Positions 52,678 to 55,429 of a DNA stretch of 64,000 nt are shown here, piece by piece (the stretch's first letter is position 1; each line of letters opens with the position of its first letter). The position numbers and the translations under genes are program-made. The notes beneath the pieces are model-generated. The model was not told the DNA's origin. It searched no databases and saw only the letters and a list, made by a program, of their open reading frames with translations. The stretch lies in assembly GCA_009697505.1 (NCBI GenBank), contig SHUD01000004.1:21395-85394 (forward strand), in the 5' to 3' direction. Origin of the DNA: Bryobacterales bacterium. GTDB taxonomy: Bacteria; Acidobacteriota; Terriglobia; Bryobacterales; Bryobacteraceae.

Positions 52678-53349
52678 CTAGACAGGACCCTGGGGCCGGA
52701 CCCCGAACAGCGCCGTGCCGACGCGGATGTGCGTGGCGCCTTCTTCAATCGCCGCCTCGAGGTCATGCGACATGCCCATGGAGAGTTTTTCCATGCCGTG
52801 CGTGCGGCCCAGCGCGGCCAGCCGGCGGAAGTAGGGGCGGGATTTTTCCGCGTCATCGCTCCACGGCGGCATGGTCATCAGGCCCGTCAGGAGCAGGTTG
52901 GGGCACGCGCGAATGGCGTCAATCAATGCCGGGAGTTCTTCCGGCGCGGCTCCCGCCTTGGACTCTTCTTCGGATAACTTCACCTCGATCATCACTTCCA
53001 GGGGCGTGCCGATGTCGTTCAAGCGCCGCGCGAGTTTCGCGGAGTCCACGGTTTCGATGACGTGGAAGATCTGGGCGGCGGCGCGGGCTTTGTTGCCCTG
53101 GAGGTGGCCGATGAAGTGGAACGTGGCATCAGTCAAATCCTTTACAGCCGCGTGCTTCGTCTCAAATTCCTGGACGTAATTCTCACCGAAGTGGCGCAAG
53201 CCGAGGCCATGGGCTTCGCGAATAACGCCGGCGGAAAACTTCTTGGTGACGGCGGCCAGGGTGACATCGCAGCGCTTTCGTCCCGCGCGGGCCACGGCCG
53301 CTTGGATACGTTGTTCTACTTGATTTAGGCGTTCGGAAAGAGATGGCAC
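52678..53349 (-). CDS. YggS-family PLP homeostasis protein
   Basis: LAAVTKKFSAGVIREAHGLGLRHFGENYVQEFETK; FIGHLQGNKA; LSMGMSHDLEAAIEEGATHIRVGTALFG. Confidence 0.95.
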   Translation of the reverse strand: MPSLSERLNQVEQRIQAAVARAGRKRCDVTLAAVTKKFSAGVIREAHGLGLRHFGENYVQEFETKHAAVKDLTDATFHFIGHLQGNKARAAAQIFHVIETVDSAKLARRLNDIGTPLEVMIEVKLSEEESKAGAAPEELPALIDAIRACPNLLLTGLMTMPPWSDDAEKSRPYFRRLAALGRTHGMEKLSMGMSHDLEAAIEEGATHIRVGTALFGVRPQGPV

Positions 53350-53930
53350 GCTGTCTCTCGCAGTATAGCCGGGGCCGCCGCGGGGCTCAATTGGTGACCC
53401 ATTTTCTCCAGAAGAAACAGATGATGGCGCGCGGGGATGGCCGCGAGAGCCACCTGCATTTCTTCGCCGCTTCCGAACGGATCGCGAGTGCCGTGGACAA
53501 ACAGCGCCGGCGTGCGCAGCTCCGGAAAATGCCGCGTGCGGAGCTGTTCCGGTTTGCGCGGGGGGTGCAATGGATAAGAAAGCAGGAGCAGGCCGTTCAC
53601 CAGATCCGGGAACTCCGCCGCGAGCAGCGTCGATTGCCGCCCGCCGTAGGAGTGGCCCCCCAGCAGGATAAATTCGGGCGTGATTTCGCGCATCGCGTCA
53701 ACGGCGCGGCGAAGCCCGTCGCGGTCGCGCTCGGTGGAGCCTGCGCGAGGTGGTCCCGCAGAATGCTCCTGGCGATACGGCAGATCGCAGCGCAGCACGG
53801 GAAAGCCCGCGCCAGTGAAAACCTCCGCTAGGGCCACGAGCAATGGCGACTGGCAGTTGGACCCCGCGCCGTGCGTGATCACCAGTCCCGCGCCGAGCGC
53901 TTTTACCGGTTCGTAAAGCCACCCCCGCAC
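53325..53930 (-). CDS. Alpha/beta hydrolase
   Basis: LVITHGAGSN, LLGGHSYGGRQSTLLA, LFVHGTRDPFG. Confidence 0.88.
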   Translation of the reverse strand: MRGWLYEPVKALGAGLVITHGAGSNCQSPLLVALAEVFTGAGFPVLRCDLPYRQEHSAGPPRAGSTERDRDGLRRAVDAMREITPEFILLGGHSYGGRQSTLLAAEFPDLVNGLLLLSYPLHPPRKPEQLRTRHFPELRTPALFVHGTRDPFGSGEEMQVALAAIPARHHLFLLEKMGHQLSPAAAPAILRETACHLFPNA

Positions 53931-53940
53931 CAGTTCCCGC

Positions 53941-54702
53941 TCAAAGCGTTTCGTAGGCGATCTCTCCTTTGCCCCACACGGTCTGGCGGCCCACTCCGGT
54001 CCAGCGGGCGATTTCCAGATAGGGAACGAACTCGGCCAGGTCGCCCTCGTATTCAGCGATGCCAGTGAATCCTCCCAGAGAGTGACGCTGGCCCGTGGCG
54101 CGGCTGGTGCGCCCGGTTGCGACGTGTGTAAGCACGCAGCGGGTCATGGTTACACGCGCGGCGCGCTCGCCGAACGCAGTGAAGTCGAGGTTCAGAGCGC
54201 CGGGTCCGTAGAGTTGGCGCAGGGTGCTGATGCGGTCGCGGATGCGCGCCAGCAAGGTTCCAAATTCCGGTTGATCGGCGCCCTTCAACTCCGTCGGAGT
54301 CAAAAAGTGAACGCGCAGCCGGTTCACGGGGTTCGAGTTCGCCGTGAGAGGCAGCCGCAGAAGCTCAATCCCCTCGACGGCTTCGATAGCGAAGGCAGCG
54401 ATGTGCCCCATGGCGCGAATGAAGAGCGCGGTGGTGGGCGCAAACACGTTCATGCCGATATTCCGCGCTCCGATCCCGTGGGCTTCGCGCAGACGAAATA
54501 CGAAGGGGCGCGGAGGGTCGGCCAGTCCGCTGGGTCCACCGCCCGGCGGCACCGACGGCGCGAAGAAACGTTGGTAGTCGTCCTCACTTAGCTGCTTCAG
54601 CGCACTGCCAAAAGCCCCGCGCAGGAGATTGGGCGTGAAGGAAGCCGCGCCTCGAGGCGTGACGCGAAAACGCAGCGGGTAAAGGTCGAAAGTGGGGTTC
54701 AT
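53941..54702 (-). CDS. cas6: Cas6-like RAMP endoribonuclease (isolated)
   Basis: N-terminal RAMP-like region; C-terminal glycine-rich loop GGFTGIAEYEGDLAEFVPYLEIARWTGVGRQTVWGKGEI; start trimmed to 54702 (MNPTFDLYPLRFRV). Confidence 0.8.
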   Translation of the reverse strand: MNPTFDLYPLRFRVTPRGAASFTPNLLRGAFGSALKQLSEDDYQRFFAPSVPPGGGPSGLADPPRPFVFRLREAHGIGARNIGMNVFAPTTALFIRAMGHIAAFAIEAVEGIELLRLPLTANSNPVNRLRVHFLTPTELKGADQPEFGTLLARIRDRISTLRQLYGPGALNLDFTAFGERAARVTMTRCVLTHVATGRTSRATGQRHSLGGFTGIAEYEGDLAEFVPYLEIARWTGVGRQTVWGKGEIAYETL

Positions 54703-54767: not shown

Positions 54768-54986
54768 GTGGCCGTGAAGGGCAGTGAATTCCTGCGCAGG
54801 ATTCACGATCTGGCCCGGCGGAAAAACATGCCGTACGCTTTCGTTCCAGCAAGAGGAAAAGGGAGCCACGGGACACTCTATTTCGGTTCCGCCTCGACGA
54901 TCGTGAAGGACCGCAAGAAGGAACTGGGCGCAGGGTTGCTGCGCGCCATGTGTAAGGATCTGGGCATCGATCCGCGGGAGATTTGA
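54768..54986 (+). CDS. hicA: HicA-type mRNA interferase toxin
   Basis: FVPARGKGSHGTLYFGSASTIVKDRKKELGAGLLRAMCKDLGID; the KGSH(G)T motif is typical of HicA. Confidence 0.85.
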   Translation: MAVKGSEFLRRIHDLARRKNMPYAFVPARGKGSHGTLYFGSASTIVKDRKKELGAGLLRAMCKDLGIDPREI

Positions 54987-54994
54987 GGAACGTC

Positions 54995-55429
54995 ATGTTC
55001 GCATTTGCTTATCCGGCCACGTTCCGGCGTGATGAAAACGGACGGCCTGTAGTTTCGTTTCCGGACTTTCCCGCCTGTCACACCGACGGCAAGGACATCC
55101 GCGAGGCGACAGGAGAGGCAATCGATTGCTTGGGCAGTGTGCTGGCATCGAGGATCGCCGCTCGGGATACGATCCCAATTCCCTCGCCGCTGAAGCGCGG
55201 GCAGCGACTGGTTCCCGCGCCGTTGTGGATCGCCGGGAAGCTCGCTTTGTATCTGGCGATGAAAGAGCGCGGGATCAGTAATTCCGCGTTGGCCCGCCAG
55301 TTGGGAGTCCGCGAGACGGTGGTGCGCCGCATGCTTGATCCCGGCCACGAAACGAAAGCCGAGAAATTGCAGGCGGCGCTCGAAATTTTAGGGAAGAGAA
55401 TCGTGATGGCCGTGGACGACGCCGCCTAG
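54995..55429 (+). CDS. hicB: HicB-type antitoxin with C-terminal HTH
   Basis: [31 protein letters not shown] and [26 protein letters not shown] at 54995 with GAGGA upstream preferred over TTG at 54983. Confidence 0.87.

Follow-up and report, generated by a model that had tools for sequence, protein, structure and literature searches.

A solo Cas6 in Bryobacteraceae and a family-wide, array-less Csm operon that it may serve in trans

What does a Cas6 do when neither a CRISPR array nor any other cas gene lies beside it? The question is raised by a gene at 53941..54702 (minus strand) of the window, the whole 64,000-nucleotide stretch analysed here. Its open reading frame runs from an ATG at 54702, with AGGA upstream, to a stop at 53941 and encodes 253 aa. 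An earlier note on this DNA had read the product as a Cas6-type protein with a glycine-rich C-terminus. Searches against Cas6 families bore this out, with 47.5 bits (E=3e-12; cut-off 25) for the Pfam family CRISPR_Cas6 (PF10040) and 133 bits (E=3e-39) for the PADLOC Cas6 profile. The AlphaFold model (pLDDT 92.9) predicted a tandem RRM (ferredoxin-like) fold followed by a C-terminal G-rich loop (residues 236-246), and its top PDB matches in Foldseek were Thermus Cas6 (E 9e-11). The double-RRM fold and the glycine-rich loop are common to this protein and Thermus thermophilus Cas6 (TTHB231/TTHA0078, PDB 4c9d, 4c98). A sequence search of the PDB gave nothing meaningful, the matches there being by fold only, and no close homolog was found in the viral contigs searched. 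By fold and profile, the product is a genuine Cas6.

The catalytic histidine of Thermus Cas6 lies in helix 1 (His37-type; the title of PDB entry 4c97 names an H37A mutant), but it is not universal, and some known Cas6 proteins lack it. Structure prediction recovered the Cas6 fold for the window protein, and helix 1 (residues 24-38) contained no histidine. The same was true of its CRISPR-linked relatives, so solo copies show no loss of an active site relative to the linked ones. Conservation was scored over 75 Cas6 proteins, solo and CRISPR-linked together, and the invariant residues were R28, G29, G32, S58, G59, F87, F133, F147, R153, R157, L161, R198, S200, H207, G211, G214, Y218, G220, G236, G238, W243, G244 and G246. 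This set was identical in solo and CRISPR-linked copies. Instead of the helix-1 histidine of Thermus Cas6, these proteins have a strictly conserved His207 in a TGQxHxLGGF motif. H207 is a candidate catalytic residue, and the window Cas6 may be an active enzyme.

Unlike its Thermus counterpart, the window Cas6 has no array or cas operon alongside. Two scans of the 64 kb, the second more sensitive, gave no spaced direct repeats, and no Cas protein besides Cas6 was recognised there, in agreement with the earlier note. Searches of the host MAG (65% complete, 87 contigs) gave no second Cas6, no Cas1, no RAMP protein and no cas10 or csm gene. A genome-wide search for arrays gave zero matches to two CRISPR-array patterns, and neither an array nor a two-repeat mini-array was seen in the 740 kb (29%) of the MAG that was read directly. 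Because the MAG is only 65% complete, these absences are weak evidence. In the data at hand, the window Cas6 was not found to belong to a standard CRISPR-Cas system. Rfam gave nothing at the gathering threshold in the window, in loci L002 and L003 or in five Csm loci.

The gene lies 10 bp upstream of an alpha/beta hydrolase gene (Abhydrolase_11; 53325..53930, minus strand), which overlaps a gene for a yggS-like PLP-binding protein (Ala_racemase_N; 52678..53349, minus strand), just as had been noted. The order cas6-hydrolase-yggS was kept in six genomes (the window, L002, L003, L004, L043 and L072). The cas6-hydrolase gap was a constant 10 bp in all six, which supports the suggested cotranscription of cas6 with these housekeeping genes. 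Within this clade cas6 is under purifying selection, with dN/dS of about 0.15-0.22 (0.08-0.21 for the hydrolase). Its GC and third-position GC matched those of the neighbouring genes, which gives it little resemblance to DNA recently acquired from outside. In the window, uvrB and cas6 are separated by a HicA-like/HicB-like toxin-antitoxin pair (54768-55429, plus strand; sub-threshold Pfam matches); L002 and L003 have no such pair at that spot, and their uvrB-cas6 distance is about 70-80 bp.

By its nearest named relatives, Candidatus Sulfopaludibacter sp. SbA3 and MAGs of Bryobacterales/Terriglobia, the host is a Bryobacterales-type member of the Acidobacteriota, and the name Bryobacteraceae for the surveyed family follows from this placement. 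The survey was extended to 150 genomes of the host's family, 108 of them high-quality. A Cas6 homolog was present in 127 of the 150, and in 93 of the 108 high-quality genomes (86%). Among 84 homolog loci compared, type I cas genes adjoined Cas6 in five (L065, L069, L081, L088, L090), and in one (L107) Cas6 had an array nearby, together with RAMP genes of another type III locus. In 47 loci, the window included, at least 5 kb on both sides held no cas gene recognisable by homology with the cas queries of this survey; the flanks of the other 31 were shorter than 5 kb, too short to judge cas linkage. The sampled neighbours of solo copies were ordinary genes (electron-transfer flavoprotein, response regulators, menaquinone synthesis, type II secretion, UvrB). 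No recurrent functional neighbour emerged besides common gene families and the hydrolase-yggS pair of the window's clade. PADLOC, run on 138 neighbours of solo Cas6, showed no Cas1, 2, 3, 5, 7, 8 or 10 among the best 25 of 52 families. CRISPR-linked copies nest inside the same tree as solo copies. The repeats at L065, L069, L081, L090 and L107 have a common 3' half, CCCC-NNNNN-GAAGGGGAYTGARAY, and variable 5' halves. At L065 (7511-9607), two tandem cas6 genes immediately precede the type I operon cas3-cas8-cas7-cas5-cas1-cas2-cas4, and the locus has an array.

In other genomes of the family, a candidate partner lies elsewhere on the chromosome. A RAMP profile matched 138 of the 150 family genomes, and the main match was Csm3, present in 137 of them and in 103 of the 108 high-quality ones. 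Its gene is part of an operon cas10-csm2-csm3-csm4-csm5, seen at 31 loci (for example L124:6885-12196), none of which had an adjacent cas6, cas1 or convincing array. Short repeat runs were flagged at L127, L139, L150 and L153, and were not array-like on brief inspection. The operon stood near hemC/cobA-hemD in two genomes of the window's genus and, in a larger set, close to a gene for an ExeA-like ATPase. Most family Csm3 proteins were 69-86% identical to that of genome G089. In a sample of 247 genomes from the phylum, core Csm3 at E<=1e-60 was found only in G024, of the window's own genus. Cas6 at E<=1e-10 was found there in nine genomes; the only family members among them were the window genome and G024, and the other seven matched more weakly. 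Outside the family, this Cas6 and core Csm3 are thus almost lacking in the phylum. Csm operon genes are carried by all three public genomes most closely related to that of the window, and the window's own organism probably possesses the operon as well.

The family operon shares with type III-A (Csm) systems the core gene order, the RNase aspartate of the Csm3 GGxDNPV motif (24 of 24 aligned sequences) and a mostly intact GGDD palm. It differs from them in having no cas6, cas1, cas2 or array beside it, and no HD domain was recognised in its Cas10, which is short (usually about 480 aa) and matched Csm1_B and palm2 only. It is also near-universal in one family, and its Csm3 is about as conserved as UvrB, on one pair each (Csm3 of G089 versus G032, 78%; UvrB of the window versus G032, 80%). 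Among the loci compared, identity was 78-96% for the core Csm2 domain, 63-85% for Csm3 and 37-73% for Cas10. GGDD or GGDE was present in 19 of 23 aligned Cas10 sequences and altered in L141, L148, L152 and L156; the Cas10 of L151 also lacks GGDD, so the motif is lost or altered in several family lineages. A strict Csm3 aspartate, where aligned, beside the loss or change of GGDD at these five loci hints that the complex can more easily do without cyclic-oligoadenylate signalling than without binding or cleaving RNA. At L124 (8381-8740), Csm2 has a long proline/RG-rich N-terminal tail, probably disordered, which also occurs in some other family members; type III-A systems differ here too. A dN/dS value for csm4 between L124 and L125 was rejected as an artefact, since the aligned piece has a stop or a between-gene frame jump.

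Cas6 was present in 120 of the 137 genomes with Csm and in 7 of the 13 without it (Fisher p=0.006; 150 genomes, kinship and completeness ignored). In the high-quality subset the association was not significant (p=0.14, kinship ignored), and no association was seen between Cas6 and Cas1 (p=0.5). Csm occurs without this Cas6 in 17 genomes, and Cas6 without a detected Csm3 in seven. Three genomes of genus g70 (G070, G110 and G133) have core Csm3 and no Cas6 of this family, and the one Cas10 examined there (L151) lacks GGDD as well. Mirror-tree correlations of Cas6 with Csm subunits were 0.34-0.63, mostly below the within-operon values of 0.49-0.78. Two Cas6 lineages occur in the window's genus, one in G089 and G139 and the other, at different positions, in G024 and G119, while Csm3 stays 84-85% identical. 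A Cas6 is thus kept even when its gene has been replaced or moved, which fits a trans-acting maturation enzyme for a fixed Csm complex.

With moderate confidence, we propose that the solo Cas6 acts in trans and produces the guides of a type III-A complex that is dispersed and has no array. It would process, or bind and trim, guide-RNA precursors, and the effector would be the near-universal HD-less Csm operon, with which Cas6 may work together at a distance. The guides would come from arrays elsewhere in genomes that have them, and possibly from some other RNA where no array was found. We count in favour the family-wide occurrence of Cas6 and Csm, their co-restriction, their association (with none between Cas6 and Cas1), the lack of an adjacent cas6, cas1 or convincing array at the 31 Csm loci, the residues and the tree that solo and CRISPR-linked Cas6 share, the Cas6 swap, the dN/dS and the operon of the nearest relatives. 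Against it we count the host MAG (65% complete) with no Csm gene, the 17 and 7 discordant genomes, the p value in the high-quality subset, the low mirror-tree correlations and the missing helix-1 histidine; no substrate RNA for the solo Cas6 was found. The earlier note had left a choice between service to a CRISPR locus elsewhere and repurposing. Our results suggested that the protein probably does serve something elsewhere, and that this partner would differ from a standard CRISPR locus: the family Csm operon has no cas6 of its own and no adjacent array.

The same observations could arise if nothing has been repurposed, with an ordinary Cas6 acting in trans for a scattered CRISPR system and Csm borrowing the crRNAs of resident arrays that the patterns missed or the MAGs lost. 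Array-less type III modules that use crRNAs of other loci are documented in Marinomonas and Sulfolobus islandicus REY15A (PMC5576922), where the effector has no array of its own, as in the family Csm. One repeat type (CCCC-loop-GAAGGGGAYTGARAY) is common in the family and was found in 41 of 150 genomes by pattern scan. Arrays are also under-called here, because the two patterns recovered them in only 28 of 60 high-quality Cas1-positive genomes. However, the documented modules take their crRNAs from a type I locus of the same genome (PMC5576922), whereas 40 high-quality family genomes have Cas6 and Csm without Cas1. Twenty-nine of these 40 matched neither array pattern, including G024 (99% complete) and G145 (100% complete, 2 contigs), and the 740 kb read from the host MAG point the same way. 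We consider this account unlikely as it stands, but for the source of the guides borrowed crRNAs and non-CRISPR RNAs are the two leading readings, and the present data fit both. The pattern scan of genus g1 gave no solo copies of the family repeat. In G089, one match to the 3-tag pattern, which could not be placed in the genome, was compatible with chance, and the Cas3 profile PF22590 was set aside as uninformative, matching all control bacteria.

A repurposed Cas6 acting by itself, as an RNA-binding or mRNA/sRNA-processing protein unconnected with Csm and perhaps tied to hydrolase-yggS, would account for the gene order and 10-bp gap kept in six genomes, and for the persistence of Cas6 in the seven genomes with no detected Csm3. 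But the hydrolase-yggS context is limited to the window's clade, other solo copies adjoin unrelated genes, and Cas6 and core Csm share their restriction to one family, which makes this account quite improbable. The absence of an array and cas genes nearby might also mark a decaying remnant of a lost CRISPR locus, which the dN/dS of 0.15-0.22, the intact reading frames and the retention of a homolog by 86% of the family's high-quality genomes effectively rule out.

Returning to the trans-acting Cas6 and its Csm partner, we tentatively put forward a further possibility, which we hold with less than even confidence. The HD-less Cas10 and Csm2-5 could form a domesticated type III-A ribonucleoprotein of the core genome, whose guides are endogenous RNAs matured by the solo Cas6 rather than CRISPR spacers, and which works as an RNA-guided RNase or regulator and not in adaptive immunity. 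No description of such a Cas6/Csm system was found in the open-licence literature searched.

CRISPR effectors are typically gained and lost through horizontal transfer. In contrast to this usual turnover, nearly all genomes of this large family of soil bacteria have a Csm complex, and it is strongly conserved; it stands apart from arrays and adaptation genes, and a solo Cas6 goes with it. In conclusion, our results suggest that a scattered or repurposed RNA-guided system has been retained in the core genome of Bryobacteraceae. If its guides are not spacers, it would represent a type III system that is fixed in the chromosome and does not serve immunity; in either case, the origin of the Csm guides becomes a directly testable question in cultured Bryobacteraceae.
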